Part shown: positions 11,374 to 59,448 of the stretch, piece by piece
Layout of the letters: each line of letters starts with the position of its first letter
Position numbering within the stretch: position 1 is the first letter of the stretch
Origin: Sphingobium fuliginis
Lineage (GTDB): Bacteria; Pseudomonadota; Alphaproteobacteria; Sphingomonadales; Sphingomonadaceae
DNA: 64,000 nucleotides
Direction of reading: 5' to 3'
NCBI RefSeq assembly: GCF_004152845.1
Contig: NZ_SEON01000001.1
Span: forward strand, 496,001-560,000
Notes under the pieces: generated by a model
Database searches by the model: none
Told to the model about the DNA's origin: nothing
What the model saw: only the letters and a program-made list of their open reading frames with translations
Translations under genes and position numbers: made by a program

Positions 11374-12236
11374 CGTCCGTCCCCCGTCGCGGCGGCGATG
11401 CCGCGCCCGTCGAGGTCGATGAGATGCGCCAGCACCGAACGCCCCGCGGCGCTGTGCAGCCGGGGATCGACGCCCCTGTACATTTCCGTGACCATGGCGG
11501 GGATTTCCGATGCGCCGTTGCGTTCCAGAAAGCGCAATATCTGGCCTTCGCGCTGCTTTCGGTGGCCCATCATGCCGCGCACCAGCCGCTGCGGATTGTC
11601 GACCGCATCGCCATGGGCCGGATAATAGACCGCGTCGGTCCGGTCGAGCAGCCGCTGCATCGAGGCCATATAGGCGGTCATGTCTCCGTCCGGCGGCGAA
11701 ACCACGCTGGTGGACCAGCCCATCACATGATCGCCGGTGAATAGGGCATTTTCCTCCGCGAGCGCGAAGCAGAGATGGTTGGAGGTATGGCCCGGCGTCG
11801 CAACGGCCGTCAGCGTCCAGTCCCGGCCGCCAAGCTGTTCGCCATCCGCCAGCACCCGGTCCGGACGATAGGCGGCGTCGAAGGCGGCATCGGCGCGGGG
11901 TCCGTCGTCGTCCAGCGTCAGCGGCGCGCAGCCGACGACCGGAGCGCCGGTCCGGGCGCTGAGCGGCGCGGCGGCCGGGCTATGGTCGCGATGGGTGTGG
12001 GTGCAGAGGATCGCGCTGACCGGACGCCCGCCGATCGCGTCGAGCAGCGCGGCCAGATGCGCCGCGTCGTCGGGGCCGGGATCGATGACCGCCACATCCT
12101 GCGCGCCCACCAGATAGGTCTGCGTGCCCGTATAGGTGAAGGGCGAGGGATTGGGCGCGAGCACGCGACCCACCAGCGGAGAAAGCCGCATCAGCGCGCC
12201 GGTGGGCAGGTCGGCCGGATCGAAGGGTGTTGCCAT
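11358..12236 (-). CDS. MBL-fold metallo-hydrolase (LACTB2-like)
   Basis: A 292-residue metallo-beta-lactamase-fold enzyme. The metal-binding signature THTHRDH (H80, H82, D84, H85), the later TPGHTSNH histidine, the TGDHVMG aspartate and the YPAHGD histidine are all in place, so it should be an active dinuclear zinc hydrolase. The C-terminal HRKQREGQIL(R)FL helix is the hallmark of the LACTB2-like branch, which includes nucleases and thioesterases. The substrate is not predictable. Start at 12236 (MATPFDPADL) is preferred to the ATG at 12248, because GGGA lies 6 nt before it. Divergent from xerC, with 65 bp between starts. Confidence 0.9.
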   Translation of the reverse strand: MATPFDPADLPTGALMRLSPLVGRVLAPNPSPFTYTGTQTYLVGAQDVAVIDPGPDDAAHLAALLDAIGGRPVSAILCTHTHRDHSPAAAPLSARTGAPVVGCAPLTLDDDGPRADAAFDAAYRPDRVLADGEQLGGRDWTLTAVATPGHTSNHLCFALAEENALFTGDHVMGWSTSVVSPPDGDMTAYMASMQRLLDRTDAVYYPAHGDAVDNPQRLVRGMMGHRKQREGQILRFLERNGASEIPAMVTEMYRGVDPRLHSAAGRSVLAHLIDLDGRGIAAATGDGRWQLR

Positions 12237-50372: not shown

Positions 50373-50768
50373 TCAAGGCTCGCCCCTGGACTCCTGCATC
50401 CGCCGCTCCGCGAACCATTGCTCCAGCGCCTTGGCGGTGCAGCCGGTGAAGCCATTGCTGCCAATGGCGGAGCAACTGCCCGGCAGGGTCTGCCGCTGGA
50501 CCTGCTCCATGGTCGCGACCTGGCTACCCCAGCCGGGGCCGCCCGCCGGTTCAGGCTTTTCGCGCAACTTCTTGGGAATGCGATAGCGTTCGGATTCGGG
50601 CTTGCGGGCGCAGACGATGATCTCGTCGCCCTCGCCCTTTGGGCAAGGATCGTCGCCATAGACGACCAGGTTGAAGATTTTCTGCGGCGGCTCGGCATGG
50701 GCCGCGCCGCCGAAAGTCAGGGGAGCCAGCGCGACGGCGGCGAAGGAAAGGGCAGTGAGGAGACGCAT
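50373..50768 (-). CDS. Secreted protein of unknown function, paralogue A
   Basis: 131 residues with a signal peptide (MRLLTALSFAAVALAPLTFG, cleavage at AHA). The mature part contains VVYGDDPCPKGEGDEIIVCA and RKPESERYRIPKKLR, then a cysteine pair (GSCSAIGSNGFTGC). It shares this arrangement with the next gene upstream. No known domain. Four cysteines suggest disulfides in the periplasm. Confidence 0.85.
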   Translation of the reverse strand: MRLLTALSFAAVALAPLTFGGAAHAEPPQKIFNLVVYGDDPCPKGEGDEIIVCARKPESERYRIPKKLREKPEPAGGPGWGSQVATMEQVQRQTLPGSCSAIGSNGFTGCTAKALEQWFAERRMQESRGEP

Positions 50769-50861
50769 CGATCCATAATCCTTGTTCGTCCCCTGTCCCG
50801 CCGGCCGGATTGCCCGGTTTCCGGCAGCCTTCTTCCAGACGCCGCGCCGCGGCAAATGCCG

Positions 50862-51446
50862 TCACTGCTGCGGCGGCGTTCCCGGTTGCGGTCCCTGCGC
50901 CGGAGCCGGCTGCTGTTGCTGGGCGGCCCGGGCCTTTTCCTCCGCCACGGCCTGCGCCTCGATCGCCTTGCTTTCCGCGTCGATGGTGGAAAGGCGCCGG
51001 GTCCGTTCCGCCTCGACCAGATCCTTCCAGCTTGCATTGTCCGCGGCCTGGCGCTCCGCCTTGGCAAGGCGCGCCAGTTGCGCGAAGCAGCCGGTGGCCC
51101 CGCCGCCGCCCACCGGCGAGCAGCTTTCGGTGCCGCTGCGTCCGACATATTCCATCGACTTCACCCGTTCGCCCCATGCCTGATGGCTGGGCTGGTTCGG
51201 ATCGCCGCGCAACGGCTCGGGAATGCGGTAGCGCTCCTCCTCGCCCTTGCGGGCACAGACGACGATGTCGCTGCCCTGGCTCTGCGGGCAGGGATCGTCG
51301 CCATAGACGATGACCAGATTGACGCGTTCCGACCCCGCCTGCGCGGCGGTGGGCTGGTCCTGCGGAACGCTGGGCCCCTGTTGCGCCATGGCCGGGAAGG
51401 CAGCGCCCAGCGCAAGCATGGCGGCGATCAGGCGGGTCTTCATCAT
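50862..51446 (-). CDS. Secreted protein of unknown function, paralogue B
   Basis: 194 residues: signal peptide (MMKTRLIAAMLALGAAFPAMAQ), then VIVYGDDPCPQSQGSDIVVC, ARKGEEERYRIPEPLRG, a cysteine pair (ESCSPVGGGGATGC) and a long helical, Ala/Gln-rich tail absent from paralogue A. The two are tandem duplicates, 93 bp apart in the same direction. Either ATG of the ATGATG may be used; the second is better spaced from GAGGAG. Confidence 0.87.
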   Translation of the reverse strand: MMKTRLIAAMLALGAAFPAMAQQGPSVPQDQPTAAQAGSERVNLVIVYGDDPCPQSQGSDIVVCARKGEEERYRIPEPLRGDPNQPSHQAWGERVKSMEYVGRSGTESCSPVGGGGATGCFAQLARLAKAERQAADNASWKDLVEAERTRRLSTIDAESKAIEAQAVAEEKARAAQQQQPAPAQGPQPGTPPQQ

Positions 51447-54188: not shown

Positions 54189-55190
54189 CTAAACAGGCCG
54201 ATGCCCCTTGCGCCATTTGGTGAACAGGTGCCGCGCCAGCATGGCGGGCGGCATTCTGAGCCAGTGGGAGCGCAGGTAGAAGGCGAAACGCAGCAGCCCG
54301 CGCCGTTCCCGTCCCCACCCGTCGCGCGCCAGCAGCCGGGCCTTGACGATCCGGTCCCGGAGCGTGAGCCGCGCCCCTTCGTCCCTCCCTTCGCCATAGA
54401 GCGCCATGGCGAGCCGCCTCGCCTGCCGCACATGGGACAGCAGGCCATGGTGCGCCGCCCGCGCCTCCAGCGCCGTCCCGTCGACGCCGTCGAGCAGGCA
54501 ATATATGTCCCAGAGGTTGCGAAGCCCCCCGGCCAGATCGCCGTCGGCCAGCAGATGCGCCGCCGCGTGGCAGAGCCGGTCCTCGGGCGAGAGCATGGAT
54601 AATTCGTTGGTGAGGGGAACCGCCTGCGCGATCATCGCCGCCGCGTCCGGCGTCTGCCGCGCCGTCAGCGGCAGGACGGTGTGATGCACGTCGATCATGC
54701 GGTCCCGCGCCGCGTGGATCATCGGCGGCAGCTCATGCATCCATCGGCGGTAATAGGCGTCGTCATAAGGGTCGTCCTTGACCCATTCCCATCCCGCGCC
54801 GATCAGCGCCCGTTCCACCCGATCCATCGCATCGCGCGGCACCAATATGTCGAGATCGCCGATGAAGCGCCCCTGCCCGGCGCGCAGCCCCGCCGCCGCA
54901 TAGGCCGTGCCCTTGAGCAGCACGACCGGCACGTCCAGGCCGGCAAGCGCCTCTGCCGCGCGATCCGCCTCCCACAGGGCCTGCCGGGCTTCGCGCGCCG
55001 CATCCAGCCGGGCGTCCGCCAATATCGCGCCCACCGCCGGGGGCACGGGCCGCTCCCCGATTCGCAGGGCGAGCGTGCCGATCAGCCGCTCCGCCCTCGC
55101 CATGGCGATGAGGGCGTTCCACCCGTCCGCATCCAGCGCCGCCACCTCGTCAGGGTCGCGCAAGGCGCGCACCAGCAGCCGGGCGCTCAT
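54189..55190 (-). CDS. Nucleotidyltransferase-fold protein of the HPr-rel-A locus
   Basis: A 333-residue protein of the NTP_transf_5-type: VVLLKGTAYAAAGLRAGQGR and FIGDLDILVPRDAM, with the G-D-x-D metal motif and 'LKG..L' start, then helical parts including IDVHHTVLP and SPEDRLCHAAAHLLADGD. Such proteins occur with HprK-related kinases and lasso-peptide or unknown peptide systems. Its start overlaps the kinase gene stop by 4 bp. Substrate unknown. Confidence 0.85.
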   Translation of the reverse strand: MSARLLVRALRDPDEVAALDADGWNALIAMARAERLIGTLALRIGERPVPPAVGAILADARLDAAREARQALWEADRAAEALAGLDVPVVLLKGTAYAAAGLRAGQGRFIGDLDILVPRDAMDRVERALIGAGWEWVKDDPYDDAYYRRWMHELPPMIHAARDRMIDVHHTVLPLTARQTPDAAAMIAQAVPLTNELSMLSPEDRLCHAAAHLLADGDLAGGLRNLWDIYCLLDGVDGTALEARAAHHGLLSHVRQARRLAMALYGEGRDEGARLTLRDRIVKARLLARDGWGRERRGLLRFAFYLRSHWLRMPPAMLARHLFTKWRKGHRPV

Positions 55191-56050
55191 GCCAGTTCCT
55201 CCCAGAGCCGCTCGACAAGGGCGATGGCCTCGTCGCCCGATGGAAAGTCGATGGCGCGCGCCGGGACATTCCGGACGAAATCGCTCAACGCCGCGAAGCC
55301 CGCTTCGCCCAGGGCGACATAGTTGGTCGATGCCTGGGTCAGCCGCATGAAGACCTCCCCCTGGCCGACCGGGCGCACGTCCGCTTCATGGCCGAAACGC
55401 GGGAACAGCAGCAGCGCGGGCGGCGCGCCCTCCGCCATCCGCCCGATCGCCTCTCTGCGCGGGATCAGGTGGCGAATGTCCCCCTTGGCCGTCCCGGCGA
55501 GCAGCGGCCCCATGCGCTCCGCCGGGGCTTCCGCCGCGAGGACGCCGATGGCGCGGTTCTTGAGCGAGACGAGGCGCGGAAAGGGAAAGATCGCCCCCGT
55601 TTCCAGGTCGAGCAGCGCGAACTCGTCGCCCATCAGCCGCCAGCCCCGCTCCCCCAGTTGCGCGGCCAGCGTCGACTTGCCGGAACCGGACTCGCCGGTC
55701 ATCACCAGCGCTCGCCCGTCCTTTTCGACGCTGGAGGCATGGAGCAGCAGGTGCCGCCGCCAGCCAAGCGCCATTTGCAGGTTCATCCCCATTTCCGCCG
55801 CCAGCAGCCCGTGGGCAAGGCTCATCGGCGCGGCGTCGGCCAGCCCATGATCGCCGGTGATGAAGATCGAGGGCCGGAACCAGCGCCGGAACGGCCCCGC
55901 AGGCTCCAGCCGCACGGTGAAATCGGCTATCGCGCCCGCCGGCATGGGATAATCGGCGTAGAGCCGCGCCAGCGCGTCCACCGGCTGGCGCCAGGCCGAT
56001 CCGATGCGGAAGGTCGCCGGACCGATCTTCAGGGTCAGGGCATGGTTCAC
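55187..56050 (-). CDS. HprK-related kinase A (HPr-rel-A system)
   Basis: A 287-residue P-loop protein. LLLHASSVEKDGRALVMTGE leads into Walker A GESGSGKST (119-127), followed by GWRLMGDEFALLDLETGAIF, matching the HPr kinase/phosphorylase core (conserved His before the P-loop and the Asp after it). The N-terminal HPr-kinase domain is replaced by an unrelated ~100 residues. No HPr gene is nearby. It overlaps both neighbours (PqqD-like upstream, nucleotidyltransferase downstream) by 4 bp, so the three act together. Confidence 0.9.
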   Translation of the reverse strand: MNHALTLKIGPATFRIGSAWRQPVDALARLYADYPMPAGAIADFTVRLEPAGPFRRWFRPSIFITGDHGLADAAPMSLAHGLLAAEMGMNLQMALGWRRHLLLHASSVEKDGRALVMTGESGSGKSTLAAQLGERGWRLMGDEFALLDLETGAIFPFPRLVSLKNRAIGVLAAEAPAERMGPLLAGTAKGDIRHLIPRREAIGRMAEGAPPALLLFPRFGHEADVRPVGQGEVFMRLTQASTNYVALGEAGFAALSDFVRNVPARAIDFPSGDEAIALVERLWEELA

Positions 56051-56328
56051 GCGATGCGGACCAGTCCAAGGGCGGCCAGTTCCGCCAGATGCGCCTCCAC
56101 CAGCGGCAGGGCCTCCTCCGGCTCGCCCAGATCGTAAAGCTGGGCCAACTGCCCTAACAGCTCGCCCGCCGTAAGCGCCGCGCCGTCATCCAGCGTCGCC
56201 AGGATCTCCGGCACCGGGGCGATCGCCATATGGGTCTGTCCCGACGGCCGGTGGTAGAGCAGCACCATATCCTCCAGCACGCAGGATGCGATGGCGTCCG
56301 GGCTGTCCTGGCAATAGCGGGCTGGCAT
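56047..56328 (-). CDS. PqqD-like protein of the HPr-rel-A system
   Basis: 93 residues: MVLLYHRPSGQTHMAIAPVP then two helices (ELLGQLAQLYDLG, VEAHLAELAALGLV). The winged-helix PqqD/RRE fold binds leader peptides of ribosomally made modified peptides. Here it heads the three-gene unit with overlapping codons. A peptide or protein substrate is therefore expected, but none is identified. Confidence 0.85.
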   Translation of the reverse strand: MPARYCQDSPDAIASCVLEDMVLLYHRPSGQTHMAIAPVPEILATLDDGAALTAGELLGQLAQLYDLGEPEEALPLVEAHLAELAALGLVRIA

Positions 56329-56395
56329 GATCGCGAAACCTGGCCTTCGGATGGGAATGTCGCGCCATCCTTAAGACAAAGGGGTAGCCAAGTGC

Positions 56396-57580
56396 CTAAC
56401 GCGACAGGCTATTTTGCGCGACGCCCCGCCACCGCATGCCGCCGGATCGCGCCAGCCGGACAAAGGCCCGCAAATAGGCGTCGAGCGCGCTTTCGACGCC
56501 ATGTTCCTTCACCGCGTCCGCCAGGCGCGCAGCCGGCGCGGGATGGTCGAGCGCCCAGAGGATCGCATCGGCAAAGGCATCGGCGTCGCCCACCGGCACC
56601 GGCGCATGCTGGCCCGCCGCGGCGAGCACCGGGCGGATATTCGGCGTCGAATCGGTTGCGACGACCCCCGTGCCGCAACCGAGCGCTTCGATGAGGGTCG
56701 CGACCAGCCCTTCCCAGCGCGAGGGTTGCAGCAGCAGATCGGCATCCGCCATCAGGGCCGCCAGTTCCGCCGGATCACCGACGAAGCCCGGAAATTCGAC
56801 CCGCCCGGCGATGCCAAGCCGCGTGCAAAGCGCCTCCAGATCGCGGCGCAGCGGCCCCTGCCCGACGATCTTCAGGCGCCAGTCGAGATGCTTCAGCCGG
56901 GCGAGCGCCAGAAGCGCCGTCGCCTGGTCCTTCTGCGCGACCAGCCGCCCGACCATCAGGAAATGCCATGGGCCGCCGCCGGCTCTGGCGGCGCGCTGCC
57001 GCCGCAGCCGTTCCAGCAGCGGCGTGACCGTCGGGCGCGGCAGCAGCGTCACCTGCCGTCCCGCGAGCGGCCCGGCCTGCGTCAGCGTCATCCGGTCCGC
57101 CTCGCCCATCACGATGGTCATGGCGCTGGTCCGGGCGATGGCGCGGAAACGGCTACGCCTGATCCAGGCGGACAGGCCGCGCTGGCCGGGGCGGACGATC
57201 GGGTTGGAAATCCGACCGACCGACCGCGTCGCCGTGCCCAGCGCCGCCAGCGCGCACAGCATGTTGCTCTGATTGCCCGCCGAATAGAGAATATCCGGGC
57301 GGAACCGCCGCACCATGACGGCCAGCGCCGGGAATTGGGCGATCATCGACAGCCGCCGCGAAAAGGGCGGCGCCGGTACGCGACGGACCGGCACGGCGGG
57401 ATGGATGAGGCCCGCCACCGGGCCGTCCGTCCGCGTCATCCACAGTTCCACGTCCACGCCGCGCAGCCGCAGATGGTTGGCGAGCAGGATCGCCACCCGA
57501 TCCAGCCCGCCATCGCCGGGTTCATAGAGGTAGATCGCGACCGAACAATCTTGTTTCACCCAATGGGGTGTATGGAACAT
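56396..57580 (-). CDS. Glycosyltransferase family 4-type
   Basis: 394 residues, GT-B fold: GDGGLDRVAILLANHL in the acceptor domain, FLMVGRLVAQKDQATALLAL and LKIVGQGPLRRDLEALC in the donor domain, and LLQPSRWEGLVATLIEALGCGTGVVATD carrying the E-x7-E motif of retaining enzymes (shown here in part: EGLVATLIEALGCGTGVVA). No signal or membrane helix. ATG 57580 has AGGG 8 nt upstream. Lies 67 bp upstream of the PqqD-like gene, same direction. Confidence 0.93.
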   Translation of the reverse strand: MFHTPHWVKQDCSVAIYLYEPGDGGLDRVAILLANHLRLRGVDVELWMTRTDGPVAGLIHPAVPVRRVPAPPFSRRLSMIAQFPALAVMVRRFRPDILYSAGNQSNMLCALAALGTATRSVGRISNPIVRPGQRGLSAWIRRSRFRAIARTSAMTIVMGEADRMTLTQAGPLAGRQVTLLPRPTVTPLLERLRRQRAARAGGGPWHFLMVGRLVAQKDQATALLALARLKHLDWRLKIVGQGPLRRDLEALCTRLGIAGRVEFPGFVGDPAELAALMADADLLLQPSRWEGLVATLIEALGCGTGVVATDSTPNIRPVLAAAGQHAPVPVGDADAFADAILWALDHPAPAARLADAVKEHGVESALDAYLRAFVRLARSGGMRWRGVAQNSLSR

Positions 57581-57676
57581 GGGGTCGCCCTTGCTGCGCC
57601 TGACCGGATCGTCGAAGGCTCGACGCCGTCAACGCTGGCGAACCGTATAAGTTCGGGTGGAAATAAAGCCCTCGGC

Positions 57677-58093
57677 TCAGCGGGGCATTTGCAGCGATGC
57701 GTAGCAGGTGAAGCCGCTCGTCCCTGACTGAAGCCGCCGGATATAGTTGAGATAGGCCTGGTTCTGCTCATAGCTGGCGCCCGGCAGCCGGCCGCCGCGC
57801 AGCGCCTGCCGGACCTGTTCCCCGCTGAAGTTCTTGCCGGCGGGGAAGGCGCCCTGCGTTCCCGCCGGCACCACCTGCCCGTTGGGCGCGATATAATTGC
57901 CGGCCCGGCCCTGGTCGGGAACGGGTATCGTGCAGTTGAGCACCGACGCGGCCGTGTTCGCCAGCGCCGGCCGGATGGATATGATCGCGGAGGCCGCGAC
58001 GGCGCCGCCCATCAGCAACTGGCGGCGCGACGGCGCGGCAAGGCCGTCGTCCTGCGACTCGGCTTCCTTCTGGGGGGGCAACGGCTCGCTCAT
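57677..58093 (-). CDS. Tat-type exported protein of unknown function
   Basis: 138 residues. After an acidic N-terminal stretch comes SRRQLLMGGAVAASAIISIR, a twin-arginine signal (RR followed by a hydrophobic run, cleavage near ALA). The mature part has two cysteines (VLNCTIPVP and SGFTCYASLQ), a proline/glycine-rich first half (GNYIAPNGQVVPAGTQGAF) and a helical end. First gene of the leftward set that includes the glycosyltransferase and HPr-rel-A genes, and thus a possible substrate or partner; this link is inference. Start at 58093 follows AGGATGAC. Confidence 0.82.
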   Translation of the reverse strand: MSEPLPPQKEAESQDDGLAAPSRRQLLMGGAVAASAIISIRPALANTAASVLNCTIPVPDQGRAGNYIAPNGQVVPAGTQGAFPAGKNFSGEQVRQALRGGRLPGASYEQNQAYLNYIRRLQSGTSGFTCYASLQMPR

Positions 58094-58191
58094 GTCATCC
58101 TGATCCGCTATCGCGCTTGCCAAACTGTAAAAATTGCCGGCTACTGCGGCCCTCTTTGCAGCAAATGCGTCAAATTTCCAGCATGGTAACC

Positions 58192-59448
58192 ATGAATCGC
58201 CTGACCGCCTCCCAGATCACCGCCTCGCTGGCCGTTCTGCTGCTCGGCACCGGGGGCGCGTTGATGATAGGCGCGGGGCCGCTCGACATCCTCCTGCCGG
58301 TGCTGGCGACGCTGCTGGTGCTCGTCATCTGCGCGGCCAGTCCGGACCGTCCGGAACCGGCCGTGTCGCCCCTGCCGGCGGAGGTTCCCGACATCATCGC
58401 CCATCCCGATGCGCGCGGTCTGCTGGAGGGCATAGCCGACCCGCTGATGCTGATCGAACGGGGCCGCATCATCGCCGCCAACCGCGCCGCGCAGCGGCTG
58501 CTGGGCGCGCATATCGAGGGGGAGGACGCCCGCATCGCCATCCGCCATCCCGCCGCTGCCGAACGGCTCGCCAGCCAGGCGCCGCTGGCCGAACCGGTCA
58601 TGATCGAGCTGGTGGGCCTGGGCACCCGCGACCAGCGCTGGCAGATGCGGATCGCGCCGGTGGGGGAGGACGGCCATGTCCGGCGGCTGGTCCATCTGGC
58701 CGATCATAGCGGCGCCCACGCGGCGGAGAAGATGCGCGTCGATTTCGTCGCCAATGCAAGCCATGAACTGCGCACGCCGCTGGCCGGCATATTGGGCTTC
58801 ATCGAGACGCTGGCCGACCCCGACCTGGGCAAGGACGACGAAACGCGGCAGCGCTTCCTGAAGATCATGGACGGCGAGGCGCGGCGGATGCAGCGGCTGA
58901 TCGACGACCTCATCTCCCTTTCCCGCATAGAGGCGGAGAAATATCGCCTGCCCGACAGCGCGGTCGACCTGTCCGGCCTGGTGGCCGAGGTGGTGGGCGT
59001 GTTCCGCACCAGCCATGGCGATCGGGGGCGGGAGGTGGAGATGGAGATCGCGCCCGGCCTGACCGACGTGCAGGGCGACCGCGCCCAACTGTCGCAACTG
59101 CTCCATAATCTGATCGGAAATTCGGTGAAATATGGCCGCGCGGGCACGCCGATCCACGTGTCCCTTTCCGACGGGCCGAGCGGCCTGTTGCGGCTGACCG
59201 TCGCGGATGAGGGCGAAGGCATCGGCCCCGATCACCTGCCGCGCCTCACCGAACGCTTTTACCGCGTCGATTCGGGGCGCAGCCGGGCGGTGGGCGGCAC
59301 GGGACTGGGGCTGGCCATCGTCAAGCATATCGTGGAGCGGCATCGCGGCCGGCTGGACATCGCCAGCGTGCTGGGCAAGGGCACCACCATCTCCATCCTG
59401 CTGCCCCGCTTCGCCGTCGAGGAAAAGGCCGTCGCGGCAAAGGCTTGA
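58192..59448 (+). CDS. phoR: Phosphate regulon sensor histidine kinase
   Basis: 418 residues: two N-terminal membrane helices (within residues 8-48), a PAS-like domain (ADPLMLIERGRIIAANRAAQ, RLVHLADHS), a HisKA domain with the phospho-His in NASHELRTPLAGILGF, and a HATPase domain with the N-box LLHNLIGNSVKYG, DEGEGIG and GGTGLGLAIVKHI. Its place directly before pstSCAB identifies it as PhoR, which phosphorylates PhoB at low phosphate. ATG at 58183 is equally possible; neither has a clear Shine-Dalgarno. Confidence 0.95.
   Translation: MNRLTASQITASLAVLLLGTGGALMIGAGPLDILLPVLATLLVLVICAASPDRPEPAVSPLPAEVPDIIAHPDARGLLEGIADPLMLIERGRIIAANRAAQRLLGAHIEGEDARIAIRHPAAAERLASQAPLAEPVMIELVGLGTRDQRWQMRIAPVGEDGHVRRLVHLADHSGAHAAEKMRVDFVANASHELRTPLAGILGFIETLADPDLGKDDETRQRFLKIMDGEARRMQRLIDDLISLSRIEAEKYRLPDSAVDLSGLVAEVVGVFRTSHGDRGREVEMEIAPGLTDVQGDRAQLSQLLHNLIGNSVKYGRAGTPIHVSLSDGPSGLLRLTVADEGEGIGPDHLPRLTERFYRVDSGRSRAVGGTGLGLAIVKHIVERHRGRLDIASVLGKGTTISILLPRFAVEEKAVAAKA

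Follow-up and report, generated by a model that had tools for sequence, protein, structure and literature searches.

A twin-arginine signal protein as the likely target of the HPr-rel-A enzymes in Sphingobium fuliginis and other Pseudomonadota

The HPr-rel-A system is known by its NCBIfam name as a set of enzymes. One example lies in the window, the 64,000-nucleotide stretch of Sphingobium fuliginis analyzed here (contig NZ_SEON01000001.1, positions 496,001 to 560,000). Five open reading frames (ORFs), all on the minus strand from 58093 to 54189, encode a protein with a twin-arginine (RR) signal, a family 4 glycosyltransferase (GT4), a PqqD-like protein, an HprK-related kinase A (HprK_A), and an NTP_transf_5 protein (NTP5). 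Genome comparison indicates that the RR protein is a likely, previously unrecognized target of the HPr-rel-A enzymes, because it combines near-constant linkage to the core genes with, usually, a short C-terminal signature. What is new is a family of candidate substrates in which one residue is the predicted target, and this makes the system directly testable.

The pathway proposed, to which we assign a probability of about 0.58, would resemble those of ribosomally synthesized and post-translationally modified peptides (RiPPs), as a kinase, a RiPP recognition element (RRE), and a nucleotidyltransferase also make up the tailoring enzymes of paeninodin, pseudomycoidin, and the linear polyphosphorylated peptides (LPP), in all of which one Ser is phosphorylated. 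The RR protein would be the substrate, and its signal peptide would also be the leader bound by the PqqD/RRE protein, which would present it to the kinase and may delay export until modification is complete. HprK_A would phosphorylate the serine of a C-terminal [ST]-C-x-x-S motif (S133 in the window protein), and NTP5 would cap the serine phosphate with a sugar or nucleotide, as proposed for PsmN. The twin-arginine translocation (Tat) pathway would then export the protein, the general signal peptidase would cut at A-x-A, and disulfides would close. In many other Pseudomonadota, the RR protein would serve an XrtA-type exopolysaccharide matrix. The serine as site and the signal as leader are suggested by analogy with the lasso and LPP systems. 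If true, RiPP-type tailoring would be tied to Tat export of whole proteins.

Linkage of the twin-arginine protein to the enzymes

HprK_A exceeds its family cut-off in 110 genomes, which are all such genomes in three samples (45, 7, and 58). In 106 of them an RR protein gene closely precedes the core or, where PqqD is separate, the PqqD gene, and 92 of these 106 proteins carry [ST]-C-x-x-S-hydrophobic at most 30 residues from the end. The earlier note had proposed the Tat protein as substrate; this linkage is strong genomic support for the view that the RR protein is the cognate partner of the enzymes and probably their substrate. The script behind the tally searched upstream, on the strand of the core genes, for an ORF with an RR signal, permitting an intervening GT4 gene or, in genome G556, a gap of 459 bases. 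It returned 83 CxxS proteins, all checked by eye, and 14 other RR proteins, a class reduced from 15 when a candidate in G417 proved false. Nine genomes missed by the script were settled by hand, all as CxxS: G384, G509, and seven whose stretches were too short for the script (G017, G029, G030, G028, G015, G034, and G005). The locus of G005 (L285) has the RR-protein signal and the C-terminal end in different frames, by frameshift or assembly error. In G039 (L003/L227) two RR/CxxS proteins flank PqqD on both sides.

Co-occurrence, through which the earlier note had proposed to check its substrate, is pronounced in the family of the window. Kinase and RR protein occur together in 44 genomes, neither occurs in 10 (one only 60% complete), the RR protein occurs alone in one (at a contig edge), and the kinase alone in none (Fisher p 4e-10, uncorrected for kinship). 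In the sphingomonad loci read, relatives of the RR protein are encoded next to the core, though about 3.6 kb away in L082, and RR proteins of the same build adjoin the core in other families and elsewhere in the Pseudomonadota. An iterated RR-protein profile was rejected as the basis for the wide tallies: it reached distant loci once and, rerun on more loci, did not. These tallies therefore rest on position, RR signal, and motif.

The arrangement of PqqD provides a further indication. Six genomes have it inverted or on a contig separate from that of HprK, and the RR protein adjoins PqqD in five of them (G365, G457, G406, G594, and G468) but not in G417. The other two of eight genomes re-examined for PqqD (G541 and G067) have it with the kinase and no RR protein alongside. 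Across 38 loci, divergence of the mature part of the RR protein tracks that of HprK once PqqD and NTP5 are accounted for (partial r 0.44, reached in 0 of 1000 permutations), and that of NTP5 a little (partial r 0.17, p 0.013), in a test from which shared ancestry was not removed.

Signal peptide and C-terminal motif

The 138-aa RR protein of the window has two cysteines and matches no Pfam or NCBIfam family above cut-off, and an RR-protein profile search found no second copy in the genome. Its signal has Tat features, namely an RR-x-h-h motif, a hydrophobic stretch, and an A-x-A-like site. The latter is present in 41 of 42 non-redundant CxxS members, all selected for the RR signal. These members share less than 60% identity and were chosen by signal and motif, three false positives (L093, L105, and L149) having been dropped from the original set. 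TatC, a necessary condition only for Tat export, was found in 14 of 14 genomes tested. A PEP-CTERM sorting signal is absent by eye, as the protein ends in TCYASLQMPR without a transmembrane-arginine tail, and no such model matched.

In the 42 members the motif reads [ST]-C-x-x-S followed by a residue that is mostly F, L, or I, the residue after the cysteine being mostly W, L, Y, or F. Beyond the serine lie 1-24 residues (median 5), and the middle, between the conserved leader and the end, spans 9-171 aa, being shortest in G509 (L181). A leader stretch P-x-h-h-[TS]-h occurs in 39 members, or 41 if S or G is permitted for P.

Constancy of Cys and Ser inside motif-selected sets is by construction, and motif invariance in alignment A1 is circular because that motif served to select 38 of the 40 rows. 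Non-circular tests are offered by position plus signal, by RR ORFs away from the core, by selection on the leader only, and by a query lacking the end. Such a query (residues 20-122) found 91 distinct sphingomonad relatives; T-C-[YF]-A-S-[LI] stands near the end in 90, and the remaining one is a cut frame. Leader-only selection gave 72 distinct ORFs, with CxxS near the end in 53. The 19 without it include three system-linked proteins (L126, L186, and L199), two small RR proteins of another kind (L036 and L134), and one ORF overlapping NTP5, most being seemingly non-coding. CxxT turned up once among the leader-selected ORFs, in a frame that looks non-coding. Among RR ORFs away from the core, the motif occurs in 34 of 978; 31 of these belong to the same family (with GT4 or a contig edge between, or as a second copy), leaving 3 of 947. 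A similar leader pattern is found in 50 of 142 distinct RR ORFs adjoining the core, which include sphingomonads with S in the leader plus spurious frames, versus 6 of 978 away from it. The RR ORF of L036 (12671-12985, leader RRSFLKTCGRFAASVPPAMTILVS) lies on the opposite strand, downstream of the core, and resembles the L134 protein.

The mature parts of all 42 members hold 2, 4, or 6 cysteines, always an even number, which indicates disulfides, as expected for an exported disulfide-bonded protein. This bears on an alternative in which the RR protein is the substrate and the motif cysteine, or another residue, is modified instead of the serine. The cysteine is as constant as the serine in the sphingomonad relatives found without using the C-terminal end, but the even counts speak for disulfides, and the HprK-like tailoring kinases described in the available parts of two papers act on Ser (PMC9266682, PMC13381572). 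Modification at a residue other than the serine is quite improbable.

Enzymes of the core

The three-gene core with 4-bp overlaps that the earlier note described, encoding an HprK-related kinase, a PqqD-like protein, and an NTP_transf_5 protein, is confirmed by the overlaps (55187-55190 for HprK/NTP5 and 56047-56050 for PqqD/HprK) and by the family cut-offs. Kinase residues H104, K125, D142, and E143 are conserved in 171-172 of 172 distinct ORF strings, some of them from overlapping stretches of one genome, and the second acidic residue is Glu in all 172. The His, Lys, and Asp are presumably the HprK catalytic positions. Lasso-tailoring kinases are reported to require a His-Lys-Asp-Asp set (review PMC9266682, available part), whose final Asp would accordingly be Glu in HprK_A. 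The best PDB sequence matches of the kinase are HPr kinases (1jb1 and 2qmh), weakly so (E 0.005). NTP5 residues K93, G94, R108, D112, and D114 are invariant in 153 of 153 strings, and no PDB sequence match was found for NTP5 at E <= 1. By these residues, both kinase and NTP5 look active. HprK and NTP5 form a single open frame of 708 aa in one genome (G513, L177/L237), supporting their joint action.

The PqqD protein is, by its structure model (mean predicted local distance difference test score, pLDDT, 91.8), an RRE-fold protein, consisting of a PqqD-like winged helix with N-terminal strands. In a Foldseek search the top six PDB matches of the model are chains of the leader-bound lasso B1 RREs TbiB1 and TfuB1 (5v1u, 5v1v, and 6jx3; E 5e-4, template modeling score 0.69). 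A PqqD profile search of PDB sequences also puts TbiB1/TfuB1 first (E ~0.003). In other Alphaproteobacteria, two HprK relatives below cut-off have a PqqD domain in the same frame, N-terminal in L136 and C-terminal in L140. Small Gly/Asn-rich RR proteins with Pro in the leader occur near other such relatives, in L134 (3-341) and L135 (685-921).

Gene neighborhood and exopolysaccharide loci

The features of the locus are collected in Table 1. The upstream, codirectional GT4 gene and the twin-arginine protein with two cysteines are as the earlier note had them, going by the ORFs and PF00534. Its suggestion that the glycosyltransferase belongs to the system does not hold: a GT4 gene lies between RR protein and PqqD in only 22 of the 78 named loci that contain PqqD (two more named loci, of 80 in total, lack PqqD on the contig), which rules GT4 out as a core component. 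Elsewhere in the window, 50373-50855 and 50862-51446 encode two hypothetical proteins in tandem, which have a CARK-x-E-x-ERYRIP stretch in common and match no family.

Table 1. Features of the HPr-rel-A locus, in window coordinates.
Feature	Position	Strand	Remarks
RR-signal protein, 138 aa	57677..58093	-	Proposed precursor/substrate
Tat-like signal R23-A45, RRQLLMGGAVAASAIISIRPALA	57959..58027	-	Proposed double role as leader bound by PqqD/RRE protein; alignment A1
C-terminal motif T129-C130-Y131-A132-S133-L134	57692..57709	-	S133 (57695-57697) is the proposed phosphorylation site
GT4 glycosyltransferase, 394 aa	56396..57580	-	PF00534, 101 bits; accessory insertion, part of Sphingobium group
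PqqD_rel_X protein, RRE fold (modeled)	56047..56328	-	TIGR04353, 74 bits (cut-off 35)
HprK-related kinase A, GTG start	55187..56050	-	TIGR04352, 238 bits (cut-off 200)
NTP_transf_5 nucleotidyltransferase-fold protein	54189..55190	-	PF14907, 176 bits (cut-off 31)
Short divergent intergenic region between RR-protein operon and phoR-type sensor kinase gene	58094..58182	.	Putative promoter region

A phoR-type sensor kinase gene is oriented divergently from the operon in those sphingomonad loci that were read, and the two share a short intergenic region (region and gene together lie at 58094-59448 in the window); in the named plasmid L276 the pst genes too are divergent from the operon. This arrangement, together with the HprK ancestry of the kinase, would fit a kinase that regulates a cytosolic HPr-like or phosphate-signaling protein and whose neighbors are incidental. 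However, none of 20 hand-picked neighbors in other loci passes a phoR or pst cut-off, the RR protein holds its position across families, and no Pho box was found in the window or in 70 relatives. Control through a Pho box was rejected: shuffled versions of the window contain the pattern at least as often, and for the 70 relatives printed the best upstream site matches about as well as sites in shuffled sequence do, with 3 or more mismatches in every case. A regulatory role of this kind is highly improbable.

The same 20 neighbors, chosen from 183 listed and coming from 17 loci outside the sphingomonad family, point to exopolysaccharide biology. Eight of them, from eight loci, exceed the cut-off of an XrtA/PEP-CTERM family: an amidotransferase in L195, L218, and L224, an export protein in L217, PrsT in L219, PrsK in L194 and L196, and EpsB_2 in L185. 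The twelve that do not include three phosphoglycolate-phosphatase-like proteins and one RND permease. In a sample of 398 genomes, HprK_A is found in 61, XrtA in 35, and both in 25, where 5.4 joint occurrences would be expected (Fisher p 2e-15 with an odds ratio of 22.7, kinship not being corrected for). The window's genome has its XrtA on a different contig. Exopolysaccharide biology is thereby indicated for the system in many Pseudomonadota. A fuller scheme can be drawn in which the Tat signal is also the RiPP leader and is bound by the PqqD/RRE protein, which would be a chaperone that proofreads export; the CxxS serine would receive a phosphate and, on it, a sugar or nucleotide cap, giving a phospho-linked attachment of the extracellular protein to XrtA-type exopolysaccharide. 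Taken as a whole, this scheme is tentative and rather unlikely. The amidotransferase TIGR03108 of L195, L218, and L224 is related to lasso cyclases, matching NF033535 at E 1e-70 to 1e-86 though below its cut-off, and these loci therefore nearly hold a lasso-type gene set.

Evidence against the proposed pathway

A number of observations weigh against the pathway. In G541 the RR protein is encoded about 160 kb from the core, and no RR protein was found in G067 and G417 in a search of the neighborhood of the genes; a third genome without one is G517, in which the contig ends at the locus. The C-terminal motif is missing from 14 of the 106 linked RR proteins, and the proposed serine site is therefore not universal. 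By eye, several of these 14 combine an SPG-aromatic stretch with C-x-x-S-G close to the start of the mature protein; in six of the 14 loci the PqqD model finds no match, the PqqD place being taken by an unassigned ORF of 73-93 aa. The Vibrio alfacsensis plasmid L277 is laid out like this motif-less type, with an unannotated 84-aa ORF (11712-11966) in the PqqD position between RR protein and HprK.

The motif-less proteins and the unlinked gene of G541 would suit an RR protein that is an exported partner (receptor, carrier, or regulator) of enzymes that modify some other peptide or protein. Such a partner role is unlikely, since the RR protein keeps with PqqD, the presumed leader binder, in five of the six genomes in which PqqD is inverted or separated from the kinase. 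Moreover, no other conserved short ORF is evident by eye in the loci printed, although systematic clustering of short ORFs was not made.

Further points against the RiPP-like pathway concern its single steps. The RR signal passes no curated Tat model (best 15.2 bits, versus a formate_TAT cut-off of 48) and has no Pfam match. Leader divergence is not specifically tied to PqqD in the 38 loci (partial r 0.064, p 0.083) and does track HprK (partial r 0.165) and NTP5 (0.226). The CxxS motif could be structural, because its cysteine probably forms a disulfide. The structure model of the RR protein is poor (pLDDT 66) and has no PDB fold match at E <= 0.001, for which reasons a fold assignment was dropped. 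In the 60 wide loci, PqqD is unrecognized in nine, six of which have a small unassigned ORF in its position; NTP5 is undetected in the examined stretch of nine, of which two are shorter than 5 kb, and in another four it is 2-3.3 kb away, so that the capping step may not be general. Deletion of lppN was also without effect in the LPP expression system (PMC13381572, available part). Regarding the matrix role, 36 of the 61 HprK_A genomes have no XrtA over cut-off, one such case (G380) being found among the 26 listed at 99.99-100% completeness, and XrtA occurs without HprK_A in 5 genomes of the window's family.

Relation to known systems

The window kinase and PqqD protein exceed the cut-offs of both NCBIfam models of the HPr-rel-A system (TIGR04352/TIGR04353), and are followed by the nucleotidyltransferase (PF14907), which we take to be the third member. 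In contrast to the enzymes, which the NCBIfam names cover, the RR proteins of the window and of ten further loci match no Pfam or NCBIfam model above cut-off. A literature search by system and family names and accessions, covering part of the literature, found no paper on the system, nor any on exosortase/PEP-CTERM/HprK/PqqD combinations. The earlier note called the chemistry undescribed; this needs correcting for near relatives, in which serine phosphorylation and PsmN-linked hexoses are known (PMC9266682, PMC13381572, available parts).

HPr kinase/phosphorylase (1jb1, 2qmh) is likewise a P-loop kinase and gives the top PDB sequence match. Unlike it, the window kinase has Glu as the second acidic residue, and no HPr is present among the ten window proteins scanned against Pfam and NCBIfam.

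Closer in gene content are the lasso peptides paeninodin and pseudomycoidin (PadeK, PsmK, PsmN, B1), which combine an HprK-like kinase with a B1-type RRE and a nucleotidyltransferase. According to the available part of the review, the kinase of paeninodin-type clusters phosphorylates the C-terminal Ser, and PsmN is needed for the hexoses on the Ser phosphate of pseudomycoidin, a host glycosyltransferase being still possible (PMC9266682). In the window, however, the putative substrate is a protein with an RR signal, the candidate Ser is not the last residue, and neither a macrolactam cyclase nor a B2 leader peptidase is found among the ten proteins scanned.

LPP (LppA/K/B/S/D/N) similarly has a discrete RRE, an HprK kinase, and an NTP transferase serving a precursor. 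As the accessible part of its description states, LPP precursors are linear, of 35-200 aa, with a conserved N-terminus and a variable C-terminus, and their clusters are from Bacillota and found in polysaccharide loci; LppK phosphorylates one Ser of LppA and does not accept S3T or S3Y (PMC13381572). LPP differs in having its own SipW-like peptidase, an MsbA-like exporter, and a leader motif YxxPxVLxHQxIxFETxxS, which by eye is absent from the window leader RRQLLMGGAVAASAIISIRPALA. No SpI-like peptidase or MsbA-like exporter occurs among the ten window proteins scanned, and the terms Pseudomonadota, Proteobacteria, and twin-arginine are absent from the main text of PMC13381572, as far as that text was available. 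The window protein instead has a Tat-like signal and a conserved Ser near the C-terminus. The locus is accordingly classed with the HPr-rel-A systems; in its presumed mode of action it resembles the tailoring sets of LPP and paeninodin, but it belongs to neither.

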